Shown one piece after another: positions 3,306 to 16,326 of a DNA stretch of 20,405 bases. Below the pieces are notes generated by a model that worked only from the letters and a program-made list of their open reading frames with translations, had not been told where the DNA came from and ran no database searches. The position numbers and the translations under genes are program-made. The stretch is from the IMG/VR virus record IMGVR_UViG_3300033145_001205, positions 1 to 20,405 of that record; one strand, 5' to 3'. The stretch comes from a virus. Position 1 is the first letter of the stretch, and each line of letters starts with the position of its first letter.

Positions 3306-3693
3306 ATGTCCAGCTTCCTGTTATTTTTAAATTATTCATTTTCAACGCCAATACATCACTCACAACTACCCCGGTATTTTTTCGAGCATGAACAACCAGA
3401 AATTTCCCTTTGATGTATGTCGCAACTCCAATGTGCGAAGAACGTTTGCCCTCCGCAAGAAATACCGCATCTCCCTCGCGTGGAGTTTTAGACAGAACCC
3501 ACCCATGTTGTTTTACAGCCTCGTTCGCAAATTCCCTCATAGCTAAACGCGCTGAGCTTTTTTCGTCAACTACGATATTGGGAGGTAATCCATCCCGCCC
3601 GAACTGTTCGATCATAATCTGCCTAAACCAATAATAACAATTCCGCTCAGGCGTCCACGGTTGTCCTAAATATTTCAGCGTCCAATGACTCAT
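3289..3693 (-). CDS. NlpC/P60 (C40) peptidase, tail tip lysin
   Basis: The 134-residue product has the catalytic Cys in RNCYYWFRQIM (C19), GDAVFL (74-79), the catalytic His in SSHIGVATY (H87) and the third polar residue in LVVHA (H102). Such tail-tip enzymes cut peptidoglycan cross-bridges locally during DNA entry; in lambda the same activity is the C-terminal half of gpK. Here only the peptidase domain is present. The start ATG 3693 overlaps the DUF1833 stop (ATGA). The end overlaps the TipJ-like gene by 17 bases. Confidence 0.88.
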   Translation of the reverse strand: MSHWTLKYLGQPWTPERNCYYWFRQIMIEQFGRDGLPPNIVVDEKSSARLAMREFANEAVKQHGWVLSKTPREGDAVFLAEGKRSSHIGVATYIKGKFLVVHARKNTGVVVSDVLALKMNNLKITGSWTYENIL

Positions 3694-4214
3694 GTTCTCG
3701 CTCCGGGCAAATTAGTCGCAGTCATAATTCTACGCCCAAAAGGGATATTTACAAGATCAGGATAGAGAGCGTTTATTATTGTTTGCTCATCATCAAAATT
3801 AATGCTGTTGACAACGAGAGGAACAGGTAATTCAGCGGCAGCAGTTTCTTCTGCACCTGCCCCTGTGTATTGCCGATAATATAAATATACTGGATCGGTT
3901 TCTGGCGATTGTGAGGCGTCCCAGAGCATCCCCCTATATGTTTTTGGCAGGAATGAAATTGTTAATTTAAGTTGACCGCGCACACTGCTTTCGGTCTCAG
4001 GCATAGACGCATCAAACGTGACCGGTGAAAATATTCCGTCCTCTGTGAGCAACGATCTGGAGGAATTGACCAGCCGAACTGAACTATCATAATCAGAGTC
4101 GGAATCGGAATCATATTCAGCCCACGCAGAATGTACCAATTCAAAAGTTTCATAAATTGTAACATCATGATCTGCGTACGCATACGCTTCCTGTACTGCT
4201 TCACTCATATCCAT
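3690..4214 (-). CDS. DUF1833 tail protein
   Basis: The 174-residue product has the DUF1833 layout: a short helical start (SEAVQEAYAYADHDVTIYETFELVH), VRLVNSS, a FSPVTFDASMPETE segment, QLKLTISFLP, later ELPVPLVVNSINFDDEQTII and a C-terminal IPFGRRIMTATNLPG. DUF1833 proteins sit between the distal tail proteins and the NlpC peptidase, the place of lambda L. ATG 4214 is chosen because GGAGGTGA lies upstream and it begins one base after the previous stop; the longer frame from 4301 lies wholly within the upstream gene. Residues 35-44 are an Asp-Ser repeat insert (DSDSDSDYDS). The stop overlaps the next start as ATGA. Confidence 0.82.
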   Translation of the reverse strand: MDMSEAVQEAYAYADHDVTIYETFELVHSAWAEYDSDSDSDYDSSVRLVNSSRSLLTEDGIFSPVTFDASMPETESSVRGQLKLTISFLPKTYRGMLWDASQSPETDPVYLYYRQYTGAGAEETAAAELPVPLVVNSINFDDEQTIINALYPDLVNIPFGRRIMTATNLPGART

Positions 4215-4215
4215 A

Positions 4216-4596
4216 CTATATCCATTCACCTCCGTCAACGCAATACGCCGACGGATAGACCAAAAGAGTAACAGCGAAATCAGACCACTGTATGTCAACA
4301 CCTTTACGGCGCGGGTATCCCAGTATGCGAGCTTTATGATCCGTATATCCCATAGAGGTCAACCACTCAGCCGTAAACCATGTTACATCCATACCCACAC
4401 GATGCCAAAAATAATTAAACTCGGATTCTAAATCCTTGTTGATGCGAAATTGAACAGTCACACGATCTGCCGAAGCATGACCCCAATTACGAATAATTCT
4501 ACGACCAGACAATGAATCCTGACTCAAAGATTTATCACCCGGAGTTATACTGACAGCCCTCAACGGTGATGGTAAAAGCGTTGGCCAAGCATTCAT
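4216..4596 (-). CDS. Small tail protein B (distal tail region, unnamed)
   Basis: The 126-residue product begins MNAWPTLLPSPL, close to the start of the preceding gene. It has RVTVQFRINKDLESEFNYFWHRVG, MDVTWFTAEWLTSMGY and the final strand segment IQWSDFAVTLLVYPSAYC. It is probably a divergent paralogue of the protein at 4596-4991, with a related structural role at the tail tip. It overlaps that gene by one base (TGATG); GAGGA lies upstream. Function inferred from position only. Confidence 0.72.
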   Translation of the reverse strand: MNAWPTLLPSPLRAVSITPGDKSLSQDSLSGRRIIRNWGHASADRVTVQFRINKDLESEFNYFWHRVGMDVTWFTAEWLTSMGYTDHKARILGYPRRKGVDIQWSDFAVTLLVYPSAYCVDGGEWI

Positions 4597-4991
4597 CAGG
4601 ATTCCTCTAACGGAAAAATATCAATATCAGATCCATCCATCTCAACCCCTGCAATAATTTCTAATGGCAATGTTAATATCCAGTTACAGGGAGACTGACT
4701 ACTGCGCCAGCTCGGAGTATTTAAAAACCTGACAAAATGAAAATCAAATCCTAAATCATCAAGCCATGGACATTCAAATTCTCCACTCTGCGCTATAGTA
4801 GTATCATAAAAAGCTCGAAACGTTGCAAGCTGTGCGGTTGTAATAACCATTGAAAAAGTGGCAGCCCATTCGGGATAAGTGCGATTGCGCGTTGGATTAC
4901 GCTCCTCTGCCGTACTCATCAAACCCGATCGAGGTTGTAGCTCATAGTCAATACTAACACTCTGCGGCAAAGTTGATGGCCAATTATTCAT
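4596..4991 (-). CDS. Small tail protein A (distal tail region, unnamed)
   Basis: The 131-residue product, located directly after the tape measure, starts MNNWPSTLPQSVSIDYELQP and continues with RNRTYPEWAATFSMVITTAQLATFRAFYD, an ECPWLDDLGF segment and a strand WILTLPLEII. It is similar in layout to the next protein (MN-WP-LP start, F-rich middle, W before the last strand), so the two may be paralogues. The position suggests a distal tail or baseplate hub ring subunit, in the place of lambda M/L. GGAGG lies eight bases before the ATG (TGATG overlap with the tape measure). I cannot name the family. Confidence 0.75.
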   Translation of the reverse strand: MNNWPSTLPQSVSIDYELQPRSGLMSTAEERNPTRNRTYPEWAATFSMVITTAQLATFRAFYDTTIAQSGEFECPWLDDLGFDFHFVRFLNTPSWRSSQSPCNWILTLPLEIIAGVEMDGSDIDIFPLEES

Positions 4992-7639
4992 CAGCCACGC
5001 CTCCCATATCTACTATCCAGCGCGGTTGCCATTCCTGTCCCTCGGCTCATTCTCTCAGTCAACTGTTCCTCTATCAGCGCGATCTGAACATCTAATCCGT
5101 CTGAACGCTGAAGAACTTGCGCAGTTGTTCCGGGCGCTTCGTGAATATTTACATTCATACCGCCATTCCCAAACTGTAATCGAGAAAGCGTGTCATCAAG
5201 TTTTTTTGATGTGCGCTCCGCAACTACTCGCTCCCCTTTTTGCAACAGCCATGTTCCTGTTTCGGGAACGCTATCAATGCCGTCATGCGCTAAACCCACG
5301 GCCTGCGCAGACTGTACGATGGTAAGCATTCCCCCGGCGACTATGCTCGCAGCGGCCAGTTTGTCTGCCACTGTCGCCCCAGTGGCCCACGCATCTGAAA
5401 CCGCATTATACATATTTAGTGTTGTTTCCGCAACCGTAAACGCCTTGGAAATAGCAAACAATGTTTTAAATGTAGAGTCCTGTTCATTCGTAAATGCTTT
5501 TTGTATGTCCGCGAGACTCTGAAACATGCTTACGCTGGTAGTCAACATAAATGATGTCCGAGCCTGCTGTATTCGAGCGAGCTGAGTTGAGTGCTCCTGT
5601 TCTATCTGCCGCTCCTTTTCATTCCATTTCTCATTCAGATCGGCATGATCTTTTCTTGCTTGATCCAGCAACGATTTTTGTTCATCATACCATTTCTTAA
5701 GATTGTCACGCTGTTGTTCCAGCATACCTAACTCACCTGACGCGCCCCCCGTTCCTGCGAATCCAGGCGCCGAGGCAAACTGCGGAAGCAACCCCGCCAA
5801 ATCTTTATCTTTCTTTGCTGTCAACTGATCTACCAGCTTAGCAGCGCGAGTATGATCAGCAACATTGTCCTCAATTAATTTCTTACGCTTATTATATGAT
5901 TTAATTATTGCTTGCTCTTCGGTTTGAAGAGAATCAACAACAGGTTTTAATGTAGCCCCGATCAAAGCCGTTTTCTGAGCATCATGCAATTTCAGCAATT
6001 CGACAATATCAGCCCCGGCATCAGTATATTTTTTTATCTCTTCTTTTTGTTTTTGTTCCAACGCCTTCAACTGTTTTTGATATCCGTCCAGATGTATAAG
6101 CTCAAGAGATTGCTGTACCTGTTTATCAAGCGCCATTATTTTTTTACCCTGATCCTCCCACACAACAAACTCTTGCTTACGCATGGATGTCAGTTGCTTT
6201 AAAAAATCTTTCTGGGCGGCAATTTCACCTTGAGCTTTTTGCTTCGCTCCTGAATCCATGGACGCGTTTAGCATACCCTCCATATCTTTAATTGACTTGC
6301 GCACATCAGCAATTTTATATACAAGAGCATCACCAGACATGCCTGCCATATTTGCCGACAAACGTTCATAAACATCGGCCTGTATTTTAACCACCTCGGC
6401 CGCTTCTCTTTCTATCAGCGTTTTTTCTCTGGCGGCCGCAGTAATGTCACGTTGCGCCTGTGCTATATTTTCATATTCCGCGAGTTCTTCTTTTACTTCT
6501 TCTATGCGAATTTTGACATCTCGTTTGCCACTGATAAACATTGTCGAATACATCGGCGCTGTTTTTAAATCATTATTTAATTCAGCGAGTTCTTCCCTCG
6601 ATTCGCGTATTTTCTCTGGCAGGGTTTTTTCAAAATATTCCGCCAAGTCCGAATAAATGGAAAGTCCTGCCCCTCCTGTTGCTCCAATAAGAGCACCAAT
6701 TGGACCCGCAACAGCAAGGCCTGCAAGTCCCCCCGCAATAATTTCCCAATATTCTTTGAACAATTTAAACGCAGGGGAATTGACAAACGACTGCACCGCC
6801 TCACCAATACCTTTGATATATCCGGGCAGATCCTGAGAAAGGATGTCTTTGTTCGCTTTCACCCACTCGGTCAGATCGGTTGCTATACTTTGAATATACG
6901 GAGCAAGTTCCAGGAGTCCAGACGTCAATTGCGTTTTGACTATTGTAACGAGAGTCGTCATTTGATCGTTCGTTTTCTCAGCGCTCCGGATCAAATGCTC
7001 ATCAATAACCAATCCAAGTTCCTTGGCTTCCGCACGCAAATCTTTATAGCTCTTGGACAGTATCCCCATTTTCTGGCCAGAGCGTCCAAACGCCGCGACA
7101 GCAAGAGCGGCACGGTCAGCATCATCAGCAGTGCCCGCCATTGCGTCCATAATCATATTGAGAGCAGCATCTACATTTGGCGCTGTCTGGATCTGCGCCA
7201 TAAGCGTTTTATTAGTTTTGTTAAGCAGGGTGTATAATGCACCGGTTCCGGCACGCAATTCTCCGACACGTTTGCCAAAGCCCATCATATTTTTGTCAAG
7301 TTCCGATATTGCCATGCCGGAAATTTCAGCAGCGTAACGTACCTCCTGCAATGTGTCAGTTGTTACCCCTGCTGCGTCTGCGGTTTTACCAATAACGTCA
7401 GCTGCCGCAAAACTCGCTTTTGTCATTGCGACTGCACCAACCGCGGCAGCGGCAGCCATAGCAGCGCCCCACTTACCAATTGACACCATAGATCTCTTAA
7501 AATCGTCGCGCATCTTTTTCTGTTCGCGAGCAATTTGCTTGGCAGTCTTTTTATGGTGTCGCCCTGCTTTGTCAAGAGGTTTTGTAAATCCACCAACTTT
7601 TGCAACGAGATCCAACGTCAATGTTCCCAGATTTGCCAT
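4991..7639 (-). CDS. Tail tape measure protein
   Basis: The 882-residue protein sets tail length and travels down the tail at ejection. Its N-terminal part has a basic helix (30-50), a hydrophobic stretch (51-80, MAAAAAVGAVAM) and a globular helical region with VAAFGRSGQKMGIL (181-194). A second glycine-rich hydrophobic segment lies at 299-328 (AGGLAGLAVAGPIGALIGA). Long charged coiled-coil-like helices fill 335-700. Near the C-terminus is AHDGIDSVPETGTWLLQKGERVV (784-806), a hallmark of lambda-type tape measures. At the usual 1.5 angstrom per residue the tail would be about 130 nm (inference). AGGA lies seven bases before the ATG, which directly follows the T stop. The gene ends in a TGATG overlap. 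Confidence 0.94.
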   Translation of the reverse strand: MANLGTLTLDLVAKVGGFTKPLDKAGRHHKKTAKQIAREQKKMRDDFKRSMVSIGKWGAAMAAAAAVGAVAMTKASFAAADVIGKTADAAGVTTDTLQEVRYAAEISGMAISELDKNMMGFGKRVGELRAGTGALYTLLNKTNKTLMAQIQTAPNVDAALNMIMDAMAGTADDADRAALAVAAFGRSGQKMGILSKSYKDLRAEAKELGLVIDEHLIRSAEKTNDQMTTLVTIVKTQLTSGLLELAPYIQSIATDLTEWVKANKDILSQDLPGYIKGIGEAVQSFVNSPAFKLFKEYWEIIAGGLAGLAVAGPIGALIGATGGAGLSIYSDLAEYFEKTLPEKIRESREELAELNNDLKTAPMYSTMFISGKRDVKIRIEEVKEELAEYENIAQAQRDITAAAREKTLIEREAAEVVKIQADVYERLSANMAGMSGDALVYKIADVRKSIKDMEGMLNASMDSGAKQKAQGEIAAQKDFLKQLTSMRKQEFVVWEDQGKKIMALDKQVQQSLELIHLDGYQKQLKALEQKQKEEIKKYTDAGADIVELLKLHDAQKTALIGATLKPVVDSLQTEEQAIIKSYNKRKKLIEDNVADHTRAAKLVDQLTAKKDKDLAGLLPQFASAPGFAGTGGASGELGMLEQQRDNLKKWYDEQKSLLDQARKDHADLNEKWNEKERQIEQEHSTQLARIQQARTSFMLTTSVSMFQSLADIQKAFTNEQDSTFKTLFAISKAFTVAETTLNMYNAVSDAWATGATVADKLAAASIVAGGMLTIVQSAQAVGLAHDGIDSVPETGTWLLQKGERVVAERTSKKLDDTLSRLQFGNGGMNVNIHEAPGTTAQVLQRSDGLDVQIALIEEQLTERMSRGTGMATALDSRYGRRG

Positions 7640-9164: not shown

Positions 9165-9697
9165 TTATTTCCTTTCGCCGCTTTCTTTACAGCGCGCTCA
9201 ATAGATTTTTTCGCCTGCTTTACAAACTCTACCGTAGCTGCCTGTGAGTATCTCGCCAGCGCCGGACGCATAAAAGGAGTGGCTCTTGTATTGATCGTAC
9301 CAAACTCCAAAAACCTCCAGTACCATGTGTCACCTCCGGGATTGTTTTTTCCTTTCCCCGCAAGCTCACCCAATTCCTCGAGAGTCCTTTTACCTCTACG
9401 TTTTTTCACAGAAGTATTCAAGGATCGCGCTCCGCCAAGAAGCCCAACACGAAACATTAAATCACCTGAGTGTTTAAATTGCTTGGAACTCCAACGGACC
9501 GCAACATTTTTTGATATTTTTTCTGTTGTCTCGGGATCGTCCAATCTCAAAGCGCTTTTTTTGACTGCATCCGCAATTAAATTGGCTGCTTTGCGCAAAG
9601 CGAATCTCCCCCCTTTGTAACTGACCTCATGACCGACAACTTTCATCATTTTGTTAAGAGCATCAACGCCCTCAAGACTATATCCAACATCAAACAT
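9161..9697 (-). CDS. HK97 gp10-like tail component / neck protein
   Basis: The 178-residue product has the family layout: VGYSLEGVDALNKMM at the start, a helix RFALRKAANLIADAVKKSAL, a SGDLMFRVGLLGG strand region, then the diagnostic WYWRFLEFGTINTRATPFMRPAL segment (about 128-150) and a basic C-terminal helix. Proteins of this type act in tail completion or the head-tail joint. It overlaps the head closure gene by 8 bases and the DUF3168 gene by 4 bases (ATGA type). Confidence 0.9.
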   Translation of the reverse strand: MFDVGYSLEGVDALNKMMKVVGHEVSYKGGRFALRKAANLIADAVKKSALRLDDPETTEKISKNVAVRWSSKQFKHSGDLMFRVGLLGGARSLNTSVKKRRGKRTLEELGELAGKGKNNPGGDTWYWRFLEFGTINTRATPFMRPALARYSQAATVEFVKQAKKSIERAVKKAAKGNK

Positions 9698-10025
9698 TGG
9701 CTATCTCCGCAAGCATTAGTGTCATATATTCATTTCCGCTTTCTGGATCCGGCAATGGCGGCCCATCAATTTTATAAATTCGACTCCGAAACGATACACG
9801 CATGTCAGACGTTACCGCATCATCATACCTAATCACTGACCGCGCAGAAGATTGCTCTTGTACACTCCGAGCCAGCAATACGTCTTTTGTACTGTACGGC
9901 TCAAACGATCCCCACACTGTATCATACTCCTCCCATGTCTCAACCATTTCGCCATCCGAGTCCTGCTCAGATGTCAGAACTAAGAATGTCAATCGGTGTC
10001 TCAGTTTCCCTGCGTCAAGCGACAT
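9690..10025 (-). CDS. Head closure / head-tail joining protein (Phage_H_T_join)
   Basis: The 111-residue product has the typical opening MSLDAGKLRHRLTF. It then shows DGEMVETWEEYDTVWGSFEP, RSVIRYDDAVTSDMRVSFRSRIYKI, and a C-terminal MTLMLAEI. This matches SPP1 gp16/HK97 gp7-like head closure proteins that sit below the connector. GGAGG lies six bases before ATG 10025, which overlaps the GT9 gene by 11 bases. In most phages this gene directly follows the gp6-type connector; here the four-gene cassette separates them. Confidence 0.88.
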   Translation of the reverse strand: MSLDAGKLRHRLTFLVLTSEQDSDGEMVETWEEYDTVWGSFEPYSTKDVLLARSVQEQSSARSVIRYDDAVTSDMRVSFRSRIYKIDGPPLPDPESGNEYMTLMLAEIANV

Positions 10026-10803
10026 TCATCCCCTCCAATCGTTTTAGCGATTCCGCGCGAACCTGTTCTGGTGTTATCATCTCCATTGCCCTTTTGCAAT
10101 GTGGACAGGGATCGTATCGACCGCACGGACTCCCATCAATGTCAGCATAAAAATTTGCGTGTGAATCATACCCGGTAATTTTAGGATCACAGAACCCGCC
10201 AAACACCACAACAGCATCAGTTTCCATACTCGCAGCGAGATGATGTGTCCCCCCGTCAACAGTTAAAACCAATGCGGCAAGTTTTACAATCCCGGCGGAT
10301 ATTCGGAAATCAGTTGACTGAACAACGCCGACACCTTCAAGCAATGGCGTTCTATCACCAATATCAAATTGGTACACTGGCACAGGGAAATCACGAATCA
10401 CTTCTGCCCATCGTTCCATCCCCCAGTCTTTATTCCGACTACTCCGCAAACTAATCCGAGTAGCTGGCTCTATAATTACAAACGCCCCTCCCGGTGCGAG
10501 CGCACGTGATATAGATTCCTCCTGCTGAGATAAATGTATCCTACCTGCTCTTGCGCGATGATCAAGTACAAATTCTGTACGGCGTGGAGCAGATTTCCAT
10601 TGTTTAATATATGACCGTTTCCCTGGACAATTAATAATAGTATCAATACCGTTTCCGCTCTCCCGACTGACAGCAGGGTTATTATTCCATGCGGCATGCC
10701 AACGCGGTTTATTGAGTTTGTCACAAATAGCTACAGGTCTGCCTGTGCTCTCACAAAGAGTTTCAGCTTCGCCCATTGCCATTATTTCATCGCCAAGACC
10801 CAT
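10015..10803 (-). CDS. GT9-like glycosyltransferase (heptosyltransferase-like)
   Basis: The 262-residue product begins MGLGDEIMAMGEAE, the glycine loop of GT9 enzymes, without the usual hydrophobic first strand in front; an in-frame TAG lies only five codons before the ATG. The second half has NKDWGMERW (124-132), DIGDRTPLLEGV, AGIVKLAALVLTVDGGTHHLAASM (acceptor/nucleotide-sugar site, D183, G184, H187), VVVFGG, and then CGRYDPCPHC (C227, C233, C236), a possible metal site. Known GT9 enzymes transfer heptose or similar sugars to lipopolysaccharide core; other substrates are known or likely. It starts one base after the previous stop, with only a weak ribosome site, so it may be translated by coupling. 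It is the last gene of the cassette. Confidence 0.75.
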   Translation of the reverse strand: MGLGDEIMAMGEAETLCESTGRPVAICDKLNKPRWHAAWNNNPAVSRESGNGIDTIINCPGKRSYIKQWKSAPRRTEFVLDHRARAGRIHLSQQEESISRALAPGGAFVIIEPATRISLRSSRNKDWGMERWAEVIRDFPVPVYQFDIGDRTPLLEGVGVVQSTDFRISAGIVKLAALVLTVDGGTHHLAASMETDAVVVFGGFCDPKITGYDSHANFYADIDGSPCGRYDPCPHCKRAMEMITPEQVRAESLKRLEGMNVA

Positions 10804-10804
10804 G

Positions 10805-11344
10805 TCAATCTTTCTTCTCTATAAGCCAATCTGCGAGATGCATTGGCCCATCCACAGTTCTCGGTGGCGCCCACGTGCGAACATCAAGACCATTCTCTTC
10901 GCAGAAATTATCAACTGCGCGCATTACTCCGATACTTGCACTATAATCATGTCCAGCAAAATACCCTCCAGACTTCACCTTCGGCCACCACGCCTTTAAA
11001 TCTTCTGATGCGGCAGCCAATGTGTGATCGCCATCAATATAAACATAATCGAAATATCCGTCATCAAAAAGCATAGCTGCCTCAACAGATTCCTTTCGAA
11101 TAAAACTTGTTTTATAAGCATTTGGATGTGAAGCGATTTTCGGTAAAGCAACTCCCATGACCTCATTCAACTCTTCCTGAGAATGACGCTTATATTCCTT
11201 ATAAGGATCAATCAGAAAAAGATGATCCAAATTCAATTCCATCAAGTGCCGAGCGTTGTCCCCCATCCACACCCCAATTTCAGCGACCAGCAAAGGTTTG
11301 TTTGTATTCTCTCGCACATAAACCATGGACATTCTATCTTCCAT
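10805..11344 (-). CDS. Class I SAM-dependent methyltransferase (Methyltransf_24 type)
   Basis: The 179-residue product has motif I AEIGVWMGDNARHL (21-34), an acidic strand end LIDPYKEY (45-52), and the motif YVYIDGDHTLAAASEDLKAW (100-119). These are followed by GGYFAGHDY and GVMRAVDNF. This is the Methyltransf_24 pattern seen in sugar and glycopeptide methyltransferases and in glycan clusters. Three starts are possible: GTG 11353, ATG 11344 and ATG 11332. ATG 11344 is chosen because AAGGG lies about eight bases upstream. It overlaps the FkbM fusion gene, whose stop is at 11334-11336. Substrate unknown; the context suggests a glycan. Confidence 0.8.
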   Translation of the reverse strand: MEDRMSMVYVRENTNKPLLVAEIGVWMGDNARHLMELNLDHLFLIDPYKEYKRHSQEELNEVMGVALPKIASHPNAYKTSFIRKESVEAAMLFDDGYFDYVYIDGDHTLAAASEDLKAWWPKVKSGGYFAGHDYSASIGVMRAVDNFCEENGLDVRTWAPPRTVDGPMHLADWLIEKKD

Positions 11345-12782
11345 TCTTGTCACCCTTTGTCATGATATAATCCCCAACCAGTACGCGCTGAACGACATAC
11401 CCAAATGATTTTAGATATTCAACTGCCCCCTTGGATGGCAAACCAAAACGCTCATTTTCTTTTTTCTGCTCAACAACAATCACCGGGCTATTCTCTCGCA
11501 ACGTCTTTTCGGATCCTTTCAGAACAGCCAGCTCAAACCCCTCGCAGTCAATCTTCAAAAACTTCACATTCTCAAAACCATAACTATCAAGAGTGTTGCT
11601 TTTAGATTTTACTCTAGTGAATGTTTCTCCCGGCCTTGGGTGATCCTGATTAATGTGTGTTGCTCCGCAATCCCCATCGTACACAAGCATTTCAACATCA
11701 CACTTTTTGTCGCCCAGCGCTTCTTCATAAATGCTAATATTATCCACCCCCCGAGAATTAAGCCTCAGACATTCATTGTGCATCGGAACAGGCTCAAAAC
11801 AATGAACATGTTCAAACTCGCGCGCGAGATGCCACGCCCAAAATCCAACGTTAGACCCAACATCAATAGCGATGCCCTTTTTATCTTTGACAAGTTCCAC
11901 CGCCGGAGAAAGTTTTTGATATTGATACGTTTTCCGACCATGTGCTGGACGGCTTTTCCGAAGCATCATTCTAAAATGTTTCTCGCCTTTCGGAAGCCAC
12001 CAACCGCCAAAATAATCCTTGTCTTTAATCGCCCCTACAATATCTTCCAAAGGCAAATATTCAACTTCGTCAAGCGCACTCCCCGGAGTCGCGTGAATGA
12101 TATCGGCATTAAATTTCTGCTGTACCTGTTTTCTAATACCGCGCCACTCATCAAGCATTGTCTCGCAAGATTTCGGTTTTGATGGATGCGTGTAGCCTTC
12201 GTGATGATGTTTTCTACCGCCAATCTCACATAGATCCATACCCATCAAAACAACCAATTTACAACCTCGATGCAGGAGATAATTCAACGACATTATCCCA
12301 GAGTTGCTACTAATAAGATGCCCCGGTATTTTCTGTAAATTTTTCCTATTTGATGTTTTATGCAAAACATTCATGCCCGGAAAATCCTTGAGCTGATTCT
12401 TTATGGTGATTTTCGGAATATCAAGCGCCTTAACCCTATCGCCAAACTCTTCGAAGAAAGACATGTCACCGAAAAACAATTCCGTGCAAGGATAAGTTTC
12501 AAATGAACGATTGACCGCTACAACATGCTGGCCGTCCAATGCGCTCAAATCTAAATCAGAAACACTTGAACCGCCACCCAGAATGAAAGCACACTCAACA
12601 GCAGAACCCTTTAATATTTCAGGGACATCTCCGGAGAATACAATATTGTCAACCGCATCAGCCCATCCCATTTTCCGTAAAAACTTAATCAGTCCCGGCT
12701 TCACTTTATAAGTAGATCCTTCGGGATGTTTCTTTCCTGCAAACTTATGAGCACGCAAAGATATGACATCAATCTTATTCAA
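11334..12782 (-). CDS. DUF115/Maf-like domain fused to FkbM methyltransferase
   Basis: A 482-residue bifunctional protein. Residues 4-40 are a small module (LRAHKFAGKK, EGSTYKVK, LRKMGW). Residues 64-240 are a Maf/DUF115-like domain: FILGGGSSV (67), SNSGIMSLNYLL (159), LMGMD (179-183) and a His cluster (192-194). Residues 303-470 are an FkbM SAM-dependent methyltransferase: IDVGSNVGFWAW (SAM loop), HCFEPVP, and LDSYGF followed by VKFLKIDCEGFELAVLKG. Known FkbM enzymes O-methylate sugars or macrolides, so this protein may both transfer and methylate a sugar (inference). Start: TTG 12782, which overlaps the upstream TGA and has GGAGG seven bases upstream. The longer ATG 12839 frame would overlap the previous gene by 61 bases. 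Confidence 0.75.
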   Translation of the reverse strand: MNKIDVISLRAHKFAGKKHPEGSTYKVKPGLIKFLRKMGWADAVDNIVFSGDVPEILKGSAVECAFILGGGSSVSDLDLSALDGQHVVAVNRSFETYPCTELFFGDMSFFEEFGDRVKALDIPKITIKNQLKDFPGMNVLHKTSNRKNLQKIPGHLISSNSGIMSLNYLLHRGCKLVVLMGMDLCEIGGRKHHHEGYTHPSKPKSCETMLDEWRGIRKQVQQKFNADIIHATPGSALDEVEYLPLEDIVGAIKDKDYFGGWWLPKGEKHFRMMLRKSRPAHGRKTYQYQKLSPAVELVKDKKGIAIDVGSNVGFWAWHLAREFEHVHCFEPVPMHNECLRLNSRGVDNISIYEEALGDKKCDVEMLVYDGDCGATHINQDHPRPGETFTRVKSKSNTLDSYGFENVKFLKIDCEGFELAVLKGSEKTLRENSPVIVVEQKKENERFGLPSKGAVEYLKSFGYVVQRVLVGDYIMTKGDKNGR

Positions 12783-13321
12783 AGCACATCCTCCAGACTC
12801 GCTACGGCAAAACAGCCAAGCTCCGTATACCGACTGCAATTATATATTTTAACCCCTGCCCGGCGCGCTTGTTTTTCAGCTTTAAGAAAATGCAAATGCC
12901 AATGCTTGATTTTCTGTACAGTCAACTGCCGGGCTTTTGGAAAATCGTGATCGCCGTGGTAATGACTTCCGTTTTTTATTGAGCAGTCATAACCAAGCAA
13001 ACCAATCTTTTTAAATCCCTGAGTAATTGCCCATTGTATTGCTCGCATCCCCGAGTTAAATGGACCGTTGGCTCTATGCAGATTTACATTATATTCTTTT
13101 GATGCTGTTTTTGCGCATGTCCATTTGTTGCCGACAGGAATGCTAATCTTATCATGATACGCTTTCCACCATTTGCAATCTCCCGCGTACAGACAGTCAA
13201 TCCGATCAAACATCTCCCAAGCATTATTGACGCAGCAAATCTTAGCCCCGGACTGAGCAACAAGATCGCAATCAGCTTTCGTCAAGCTTGGGCCAGATGC
13301 TACGCAGAATATATCAATCAT
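12779..13321 (-). CDS. Maf/DUF115-like glycosyltransferase-fold protein
   Basis: The 180-residue product starts at ATG 13321, whose A is the last base of the connector's TAA stop; a longer frame from 13336 would only add MGNIL and is unlikely. Motifs: VASGPSL (7-13), VNNAW (31-35), FNSGMRAIQWAI (88-99), IGLLGYD (106-112) and a histidine cluster SHYHGDH (119-125). This pattern (GPSL, NSG, LxGxD, H) is shared with DUF115/Maf motility-associated and GT42-like glycosyltransferases. Similar phage proteins are often left as morphogenesis-associated unknowns. Likely role: sugar transfer or nucleotide-sugar binding; not proven. It is the first gene of the four-gene cassette. Its stop is shared with the next start as TTGA. 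Confidence 0.65.
   Translation of the reverse strand: MIDIFCVASGPSLTKADCDLVAQSGAKICCVNNAWEMFDRIDCLYAGDCKWWKAYHDKISIPVGNKWTCAKTASKEYNVNLHRANGPFNSGMRAIQWAITQGFKKIGLLGYDCSIKNGSHYHGDHDFPKARQLTVQKIKHWHLHFLKAEKQARRAGVKIYNCSRYTELGCFAVASLEDVL
12790..12794 (-). promoter_or_regulatory. Shine-Dalgarno deciding a TTG start
   Basis: GGAGG seven bases before TTG 12782, inside the last codons of the preceding gene. The TTGA stop/start overlap and this site together favour the rare TTG start. Confidence 0.65.
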
Positions 13322-13710
13322 TAATATGTTCCCCAACTTTTAATCGGGTATAATAATGCACGTACAGGAGATGGCAGAGTTGCCTCCCCATAATTCGGAC
13401 TGCCTCCATCGCGATACCGATGCATGTCTCCCAGTAATAGCAATGTCGCAAACTTAAGAGTATCAAGATAATCTTCATCACCCAGCCAATCGGAATCCCA
13501 ATCATCATCCCAGTCTGAGTCAATCTCATAATCTGAATCAAGGTCATCAATTTCATTTGCAGCAACATACCTATCTGGAGTCCACTCAATATAATCCAAA
13601 ACAACGGCCGAAGCCGCTTGTATTTTTAGATCAAGATCGGCAGCCTCGTCAGTTGAATCATCAATCCTGAGATGTGCGGCCGCCTCCGTACGAGTAACAA
13701 TCATAGTCAT
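13321..13710 (-). CDS. Head-tail connector, gp6-like (Phage_connect type)
   Basis: Adaptor ring between portal and head closure protein. The 129-residue product starts with MTMIVTRTEAAAHLRID, then helix LDLKIQAASAVVLDYIEW, and ends with FATLLLLGDMHRYRDG and LPSPVRALLYPIKSW. This is the arrangement of HK97 gp6-type connectors. Unusually, residues 53-83 form a very acidic insert rich in Asp, Ser and Trp (DSDWDDDWDSDW) between the helices. AAGGAG lies eight bases before the ATG, which overlaps the collagen gene stop (ATGA). The stop overlaps the next ATG as TAATG. Confidence 0.85.
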   Translation of the reverse strand: MTMIVTRTEAAAHLRIDDSTDEAADLDLKIQAASAVVLDYIEWTPDRYVAANEIDDLDSDYEIDSDWDDDWDSDWLGDEDYLDTLKFATLLLLGDMHRYRDGGSPNYGEATLPSPVRALLYPIKSWGTY

Positions 13711-14684
13711 TGCGAAAGCTCCTTAGCATCACGCCCACGTTTTACTGCCAAACGCCATTCATCGCCAGACCCCGGTTTTTGATTCGGACTGTTCTTTTGA
13801 GCAATCCAAAAAGACCCACTCCACGTCACACCGTCCCCCTTGCTATATGTATTCCCCGGCCTATAAACTCCCCGGTCTATAAGAATTGGCATATCTATCA
13901 CAAACTCTTTTTTACGACCATCTTTTTCAAAAACAATTTGAAGGCGCTTTTCGTCTAACTGAACAACGTTTAAATCATCAAACCCAAATCCGTCTACGCC
14001 ATCCTTACCATCTAATCCCGAAGCACCATCTATACCATTGCTGCCGGGGGTACCGTCCCTTGGCTCTGGAATTTTATCAATAGCTTTCTGTACCATGTCA
14101 ATAGTACGGCGCTCCAAATCTAATACATGTTTTGATATCACACGATCAATAAGTTTTTCAACATCTTCCTCTGTGATGCTCTCCCCGTCCTGACCCGGTT
14201 CGCCTTTTTCGCCAAGTTCTCCCTGCAGACCGTCCTGACCTTTCTCTCCCTGCTCTCCACGTTCGCCTTTTTCGCCAAGCTCACCCGGTGAACCGTCCTG
14301 ACCCGGCTCCCCTTTTTCTCCACGTTCGCCTTTTTCGCCAAGTTCACCATGTGAACCCGGTTCGCCTTTCTCTCCCTGCTCGCCACGTTCGCCCGGTTCG
14401 CCCGGTTCGCCCGGATCGCCTTTTTCGCCACGCTCGCCCTGATCGCCCGGCTCGCCCGGATCGCCATCAATGCCCTGATCACCCGGTTTCCCTTGCTCTC
14501 CTTTTTCTCCCTGCTGTCCTTGCTCGCCCGGTTCACCACGTTCACCCAGTTCCCCGCTCTCTCCCGGTTCGCCTTTTTCTGGTTGACGATCCTCAATGTC
14601 TTTTATCCGGCGGAGAACAGGCAAAAATTCCTTTGCTAAATACTCATGTATCCCAGATACAAATTTCTCAACATCAAATTCCAT
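13707..14684 (-). CDS. Collagen-like phage protein with C-terminal carbohydrate-binding-like module
   Basis: The 325-residue protein has a short N-terminal anchor (1-35), then 44 uninterrupted Gly-X-Y triplets (G38-G167) rich in GE, GEK and GEP, predicted to form a trimeric collagen helix. A helical spacer (170-205) follows, then eight more triplets (G211-G232), a small domain (235-270) and a C-terminal segment (272-315) with YRPGNTYSKGDGVTWSG and a following WIA. That last segment resembles the small aromatic chitin-binding type modules (CBM5/12) common in phage fibres. GGAGGAG seven bases upstream gives a strong start. It lies between the portal and connector genes, so it may be a head- or neck-attached fibre; function is inferred. 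The stop overlaps the next start as ATGA. Confidence 0.85.
   Translation of the reverse strand: MEFDVEKFVSGIHEYLAKEFLPVLRRIKDIEDRQPEKGEPGESGELGERGEPGEQGQQGEKGEQGKPGDQGIDGDPGEPGDQGERGEKGDPGEPGEPGERGEQGEKGEPGSHGELGEKGERGEKGEPGQDGSPGELGEKGERGEQGEKGQDGLQGELGEKGEPGQDGESITEEDVEKLIDRVISKHVLDLERRTIDMVQKAIDKIPEPRDGTPGSNGIDGASGLDGKDGVDGFGFDDLNVVQLDEKRLQIVFEKDGRKKEFVIDMPILIDRGVYRPGNTYSKGDGVTWSGSFWIAQKNSPNQKPGSGDEWRLAVKRGRDAKELSQ
14178..14573 (-). repeat. Collagen (Gly-X-Y)44 repeat region
   Basis: About 396 bases of degenerate 9-base repeats encode 44 consecutive Gly-X-Y triplets. The repetition creates long open frames on both strands (for example the 14138-14596 minus and 14288-14839 plus frames), which are artefacts. 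Confidence 0.9.
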
Positions 14685-16044: not shown

Positions 16045-16326
16045 TTATTCTGCAACAAGGTCTTTGCGATTATAAGTATTACCCGTTTTTTTCTTCGTTG
16101 TTTTTTTCTTCGTTGCTTTCTTTTTCGTTGTTTTTTTCTTCGTTGCTTTCTTTTTAATGGGTGTCGAATATCCTTTCGGAGGAGCAGGGATCACTACAGG
16201 AACGCGCTTAACCTTACCAATAGCCTCAAGCACCCTAACATGTTTCTCTTTTTTTATTTCATATTCATCGCCTGGTATCCGTATCTGTTTAGCATATCCA
16301 TGACGTCTCAAAGTTTTGACCAGCAT
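16045..16326 (-). CDS. Small phage head-region protein with lysine-rich tail
   Basis: The 93-residue product belongs to no family I can name with confidence. Residues 1-40 form a compact module (LRRHGY..., IPGDEYEI, VRVLEAIGKV) of a type seen in small proteins of phage head operons. Residues 41-56 are proline-rich, and residues 58-80 are a tandem KKKATKKKTT repeat resembling a histone H1 tail. It is strongly basic and could bind DNA or the negatively charged capsid interior; this is inference. GGAG lies eight bases before the ATG. The gene sits between the capsid gene and the portal. Residues 2-40 resemble the N-terminus of the FkbM fusion protein encoded at 11334-12782. Confidence 0.75.
   Translation of the reverse strand: MLVKTLRRHGYAKQIRIPGDEYEIKKEKHVRVLEAIGKVKRVPVVIPAPPKGYSTPIKKKATKKKTTKKKATKKKTTKKKTGNTYNRKDLVAE
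16087..16155 (-). repeat. 30-bp tandem repeat encoding KKKATKKKTT
   Basis: Just over two copies of a 30-base unit encode residues 58-80 of the small basic protein. A near-identical in-frame repeat of this kind can expand or contract by slippage, so the length of the tail may vary between relatives. Confidence 0.8.

Follow-up and report, generated by a model that had tools for sequence, protein, structure and literature searches.

Organization and conservation of the cassette

The stretch of DNA analyzed here (the window) is the 20,405-base virus record IMGVR_UViG_3300033145_001205, and all coordinates are positions in the whole window. A single minus-strand late block, with terS (20354) at one end and the gene of a J-like tail protein at the other, holds almost every gene of the window. 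Within this block, four genes encoding a Maf-like protein (Maf1), a fusion of a Maf-like domain with an FkbM methyltransferase (Maf-FkbM), a Methyltransf_24 enzyme (MT24) and a GT9-like enzyme (GT9) are situated between the genes of a gp6-like head-tail adaptor and of the head completion/closure protein (HCP) (Table 1). All four open reading frames (ORFs) of this cassette were found at 10015-13321 on the minus strand in the ORF listing, and both flanks were recognized by profiles, in agreement with the initial annotation, which had described a four-gene glycosyl/methyl-transfer cassette between a gp6-like connector and a head closure protein. The reading of the junctions likewise bore out the claim that the genes are co-directional and overlap or are separated by one base. 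The ATG of Maf1 (13321) overlaps the gp6 stop codon as TAATG, whereas Maf-FkbM starts with TTG at 12782, behind a GGAGG ribosome site and in a TTGA overlap with the Maf1 stop codon, its start being refined from the listed ORF start at 12839 to a position 57 bases further downstream. MT24 probably starts with the ATG at 11344, overlapping the end of the Maf-FkbM gene; the GT9 gene starts at 10803, a single base past MT24, and the HCP gene overlaps it by 11 bases. The synteny suggests that the cassette is co-expressed with the late structural genes; promoter-like sites in the window were no more frequent than the chance level.

Table 1. Genes of the cassette, its two flanks and a related head-locus gene in the window
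Feature	Position	Strand	Basis
gp6-like head-tail adaptor (Ad1), upstream flank	13321..13710	-	phrog_40, E 1.3e-12
Maf1, putative 180-aa GT42/Maf-fold glycosyltransferase, phrog_4603/P1 PmgO family, first cassette gene	12779..13321	-	phrog_4603, AlphaFold2 fold, start read
Maf-FkbM fusion: N-terminal head-protein-like domain (~45 aa), Maf-like domain, C-terminal FkbM methyltransferase	11334..12782	-	PF05050, phrog_4603, hhalign
MT24, S-adenosylmethionine (SAM)-dependent methyltransferase of the Methyltransf_24 family, TylF-like	10805..11344	-	PF13578
GT9 (heptosyltransferase-like) glycosyltransferase	10015..10803	-	PF01075
Head completion/closure protein (HCP, Hc1), downstream flank	9690..10025	-	PF05521, E 2.2e-23; phrog_25
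Small 93-aa head-locus protein, N-terminal ~45 aa homologous to the Maf-FkbM N-terminus, Lys/Thr-rich tail	16045..16326	-	hhalign, joint hidden Markov model (HMM)

The order gp6, Maf1, Maf-FkbM, MT24, GT9, HCP was kept in IMG/VR relatives (about 66-88% identity). All four cassette genes were present in L013; one extra gene was found in L016, and two extra genes together with a cut GT9 were found in L009, while in the truncated contigs L011, L014 and L015 the cassette was partly visible. The extra gene of L016 and L009 was weakly GT29-like (sialyltransferase family), and L009 carried a second MT24. The dN/dS values of the cassette genes were about 0.05-0.15, which is approximate with synonymous sites near saturation, and the constraint was similar to that of the structural genes; judging from the sequence comparison, the cassette is under purifying selection. 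In the cassette-free relatives L115, L118 and L129, the gp6, HCP and neck genes directly adjoin, which supports the view that the connector and closure genes are normally adjacent.

Maf1 and its partner enzymes

Maf1 matched phrog_4603 (E 3.2e-47, profile positions 1-173 of 178), a family annotated as 'alpha-2,3-sialyltransferase' that takes in P1 PmgO (42% identity), PAJU2 ORF010 (45%) and Yuavirus proteins, and scored below the gathering cut-off of PF01973 (MptE-like, former DUF115; 24.4 bits vs 34.6). The AlphaFold2 model, built with 33 homologues, had a predicted local distance difference test (pLDDT) score of 91.8. The structural comparison, made among Foldseek's candidates, gave the Magnetospirillum Maf glycosyltransferase 5mu5 as the top match (Z 14.7 over 164 residues); the GT42 sialyltransferases CstII/CstI had Z 11.3-13.4 and a Pasteurella sialyltransferase Z 10.8, whereas thiamine pyrophosphokinase (Z 10.6) and archaeal HPPK (Z 10.3) were lower and had less coverage than Maf and GT42. 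The GPS loop, N32, D48, S90-G91, GYD and H120/H122/H125 (HxHxxH) were invariant in the 33 homologues, and these positions may be equivalents of the nucleotide-binding and catalytic residues of CstII. On the evidence of the model, Maf1 is a putative glycosyltransferase with the GT42/Maf fold across the whole domain; the fold prediction that the initial annotation had proposed for the Maf-like domains thus yielded, for Maf1, a confident glycosyltransferase fold. The PDB sequence search gave no relatives for Maf1, the Maf-FkbM fusion, GT9 or MT24.

The other domain assignments of the initial annotation also held, with Pfam cut-offs passed by the FkbM domain of the fusion (PF05050, 56 bits vs 22.7, profile positions 1-172 of 173), MT24 (PF13578, 58.7 bits vs 26.3) and GT9 (PF01075, 31.1 bits vs 22), and the Maf assignment made via phrog_4603. 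GT9 has an N-terminal G-x-G-D motif (GLGD at residues 2-5), invariant among its relatives. MT24 weakly resembles methyltransferases of Mycobacterium phages, and its Malthus counterpart is not beside annotated glycosyltransferases. The Maf part of the fusion matched phrog_4603 with E 2e-21 and Maf1 with an hhalign probability of 97.5%, similar motifs being retained; the structure model of the fusion, based on an alignment of 5 sequences, had a pLDDT of 31 and gave no confident fold. The first 45 residues of the fusion matched the N-terminal part of the 93-aa protein whose gene lies between those of the capsid and portal (hhalign 97%, E 8e-11, separately built alignments), as was also found with the joint HMM, and both copies of this shared domain, in the enzyme and in the head-locus protein, were present in L009 and L013. 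This domain may dock the enzyme on the particle or on a partner common with the head-locus protein. The 93-aa protein itself ends in a Lys/Thr repeat tail (KKKATKKKTTKKK...), which is variable or absent among relatives.

Relatives of Maf1 are encoded on 553 IMG/VR contigs and were found in 3 of 349 sampled genomes of one bacterial phylum, two of these three in a trio of Maf1, GT9-like and methyltransferase genes. Maf1 lineages were defined as clusters at 70% identity with at least 2.5 kb of downstream sequence (n = 27). A glycosyltransferase-type gene was located within 5 kb downstream in 25 of the 27 lineages, accompanied by a methyltransferase in 20; the two exceptions were L033, where Maf1 is naturally fused to a GT9-like phrog_6804 protein (L033:1548-3002), and L032, where Maf1 stands alone. 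The GT9 label of phrog_6804 rests on one member over the Pfam cut-off (22.6 vs 22) and on the GxGD motif, and its match to the GT9 of the window was weak by hhalign (3-11%). Partners with Pfam support belonged to GT2, TOD1/MUCI70, GT9 and Methyltransf_23, 24 and 11. Since the partner families were drawn from the same neighbourhoods as were tallied, the lineage tally is descriptive, and the HCP-anchored comparison serves as a partial control: partner families were present in 32/32 Maf1-positive loci vs 7/36 Maf1-negative ones, with three of these seven (L103, L111, L112) being contigs cut inside a cassette. Maf1 is the constant gene, and the transferases and methyltransferases beside it are interchangeable. 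A second Maf1-like copy is present in L018, and P1 also has a tandem pair, its PmgP being a second Maf-like protein (hhalign 96%). The largest cassettes (L136, L138, L141, L143, L145) consisted of Maf1 followed by approximately five capsule-type, GT4-like or GT8-like transferases with weak Pfam support and a methyltransferase; in the cassette-positive phage L021, HCP is followed by an inserted gene (3486-6110) for an 865-aa protein without clear family membership.

The position of the cassette varied. It occupies the gp6/HCP junction in the clade of the window, the HCP/neck junction in PAJU2-like phages, and elsewhere lies before terS (L061), after J (L027) or beside tail genes (P1). The co-occurrence between connector and closure genes, which the initial annotation had proposed to check in phage genomes, holds in the clade of the window; elsewhere, the genes are found at HCP/neck, before terS or outside the structural block. 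Maf1 was present in only 18 of 80 loci located via the tail-tube protein (TTP). Together with these varying positions, the adjoining neck genes of cassette-free relatives argue that the cassette is an optional insert which was acquired more than once or moved.

Proposed function and the likely acceptor

We consider the four genes to be a late glycan assembly cassette whose acceptor is most likely a virion protein, with a probability of about 0.52. The glycan-building and methylating function is supported by the recurrence of the glycosyltransferase and methyltransferase association across lineages. No hydrophobic segment above KD19 1.5 was detected in the four cassette proteins, and neither a flippase gene nor genes for nucleotide-sugar synthesis appeared in the gene lists of the window; this favours a protein acceptor in the cytoplasm and donors supplied by the host. 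The virion is the likeliest acceptor because of the late expression, the head domain on the fusion enzyme and the mycobacteriophage precedent discussed below. For the enzymatic activities, the donor sugars, the sequence of steps, the acceptor and the benefit, we infer the following. Soluble Maf1 would start (or cap) the glycan with a sugar taken from a nucleotide sugar of the host, which, by analogy with GT42, would be linked to cytidine monophosphate (CMP). Further sugars would be attached by the second Maf-like domain and by the GT9 enzyme, and the FkbM and Methyltransf_24 domains would O-methylate the product. The acceptor, a virion protein, would be modified in the cytoplasm during particle assembly, with the N-terminal domain of the fusion possibly docking the enzyme on the particle or on a shared partner. 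The benefit could be masking from antibodies or defences, or altered adsorption or stability.

Several observations weigh against this reading. Unrelated genes occupy the same connector/neck junctions, namely HNH/GIY-YIG-like homing-type endonucleases in L034, L050, L067 and L149 (recognized by eye from sequence); because the connector block also accepts such inserts, the location of the cassette speaks more for late expression than for the virion as the target. The initial annotation had taken the late operon as a sign that a glycan is built and methylated on a virion protein, and the recurrence across lineages upholds the first part of this claim, while its use of position as a pointer to the virion is weakened. 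In Eowyn, the trio of Maf1, GT9 and methyltransferase genes is located outside the structural block, and the capsule-type, GT4-like and GT8-like partner calls had weak or no Pfam support. P1 can do without pmgO, pmgP, ppp and pmgQ (PMC10695390, PMC9024508), and the P1 virion-proteome paper does not mention PmgO, PmgP or PmgQ by name. No candidate acceptor co-varied with the cassette. The C-terminus of TTP, suggested as an acceptor by the mycobacteriophage precedent, was rejected: Ser/Thr-rich TTP ends were found in 9/21 Maf1-positive vs 1/8 negative cases in the first sample (p 0.20), but in 1/9 vs 3/10 when a second, independent sample was scored in the same way.

Two other proteins were considered as acceptors. 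The collagen-like protein (13707-14684, minus strand), encoded between the portal and gp6 genes, was not supported, its relatives occurring with and without the cassette; its C-terminal domain matches phrog_1289 (annotated portal), and its PAJU2 counterpart is without the long collagen repeat. The Lys/Thr-rich tail of the 16045-16326 product was discarded as a general acceptor, being absent in the cassette-positive L028-L030.

The principal alternative is late remodelling of host surface glycans, in which nascent lipopolysaccharide (LPS) core or another envelope glycan would be changed near lysis, and progeny would avoid debris and infected cells. The heptosyltransferases that build the LPS core form the GT9 family, P1 PmgQ carries a glycosyltransferase annotation, the trio is also known from a site away from structural operons, and the dispensability of the P1 genes in the laboratory agrees with such a role. 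However, late timing would leave a short period for a surface change, the four cassette proteins have no membrane anchor and the window lacks the flippase and donor-synthesis genes mentioned above, many lineages carry the cassette embedded in head-tail operons, and a head-protein-like domain is attached to the fusion enzyme, so that we regard remodelling of the host surface as unlikely.

The chances appear slim that Maf1 has turned into a structural or assembly (neck) protein, with the neighbouring enzymes as a separate passenger set. PAJU2 ORF010 is labelled 'structural protein' by its depositors, as are only ORF003 (capsid), ORF015 (tail tube) and ORF023; the Eowyn homologue is labelled in the same way, and a constant gene that can stand alone, as in L032, is what would be expected of such a protein. 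Against this, the catalytic-type positions are invariant, Maf1-free phages have complete adjoining neck genes, second Maf-like copies exist in L018 and P1 (PmgP), and Maf1 is naturally fused to a GT9-like enzyme. Slightly less credible still is an action on a nucleic acid or small molecule, in which the cassette would hypermodify DNA or the Maf fold would serve as a pyrophosphokinase of the pterin/thiamine type. This fold is indeed common to HPPK and thiamine pyrophosphokinase, and DNA-hypermodifying phage glycosyltransferases are cited in PMC12619734, but Maf and GT42 score higher across the whole chain (Z 13-15), base-modification genes were not found among the window gene lists, and the partners are sugar and O-methyl enzymes in a late position rather than beside replication genes.

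Returning to the virion as acceptor, we tentatively propose, at somewhat less than even odds, that these cassettes represent a widespread and unrecognised class of phage particle glycosylation which includes P1, and in which the constant Maf1/PmgO would mark a structural acceptor, while swappable modules (GT9, GT2, TOD1/MUCI70, capsule-type, methyltransferases) would vary the outer glycan between related phages. If the acceptor is indeed a virion protein, sugar-decorated particles, so far a trait of a few mycobacteriophages, would become one of many phages of Gram-negative bacteria. The glycan would be swappable, which would matter for phage therapy, for adsorption and for the evasion of antibodies. 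The dispensable, unexplained pmgO-Q genes of P1 would then gain a function, and P1 would offer a directly testable system. A constant enzyme with variable partners also provides an annotation rule for genes labelled 'alpha-2,3-sialyltransferase' or 'structural protein'.

Two further features of the window were noted. The tail assembly chaperone gene (8298-7640, minus strand) has an in-frame GGGGGGA slippery heptamer near its end, at about 7955-7949, and the -1 frame stays open across the gene that follows (7900-7640); a programmed frameshift of the lambda G/GT type is likely here. At 4216-4991 (minus strand), there are two tandem paralogues, both matching phrog_384, which correspond to a single continuous ORF in L013 (12112-12909).

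Relation to known systems

Bacterial Maf flagellin glycosyltransferase (5mu5) and GT42 CstI/CstII share their fold with nearly the whole Maf1 chain. Maf1, however, is a lone 180-aa central-type domain, approximately 15% identical to them. It is encoded in the head-tail operon of a phage, and neither flagellin nor sialic acid genes are close by, so that the arrangement of the bacterial system, a multi-domain Maf near flagellin genes, is not present. The GtrABC seroconversion cassettes of temperate phages are similar in being phage-encoded sets of glycan-modifying genes. In a Gtr cassette, a flippase works together with a transferase bound to the membrane, and the O-antigen of the lysogen is modified, whereas the proteins of the window cassette have no membrane segments or other such features.

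The closest gene sets are those of P1 (pmgO-pmgP-ppp-pmgQ), in which the Maf1 homologue precedes a further Maf-like protein and a glycosyltransferase, and of PAJU2 (ORF010-ORF012), in which it precedes a GT9-like protein and a methyltransferase. Both differ from the window in having no FkbM fusion and in the location of the cassette (HCP/neck in PAJU2, beside tail genes in P1), and the label they carry is 'putative morphogenetic function'.

The closest functional precedent is the virion glycosylation of mycobacteriophages (Corndog, Che8, Myrna), ascribed to Freeman et al. 2023 in PMC11600133, PMC12363180 and PMC12619734. In cluster O mycobacteriophages, according to PMC11600133 and PMC12363180, the capsid and the tail tube are modified through three glycosyltransferase genes that neighbour an O-methyltransferase gene. 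The likeness consists in phage glycosyltransferases that, in cluster O, lie next to an O-methyltransferase. The enzyme families differ as far as searched (no Mycobacterium match for GT9, and none among the organisms listed for Maf1); the window genes are situated in the connector block and led by a GT42/Maf-fold enzyme.

The initial annotation had recognized no described system in this set of genes, and no description of the cassette as a system was found in the open-access literature searched; its first gene, however, is not peculiar to this phage, as the phrog_4603 members PmgO, ORF010 and the Yuavirus proteins demonstrate. Thus, virion glycosylation by phage enzymes is already known, while this set of enzymes, the way it recurs and its location within the connector block appear to be new.

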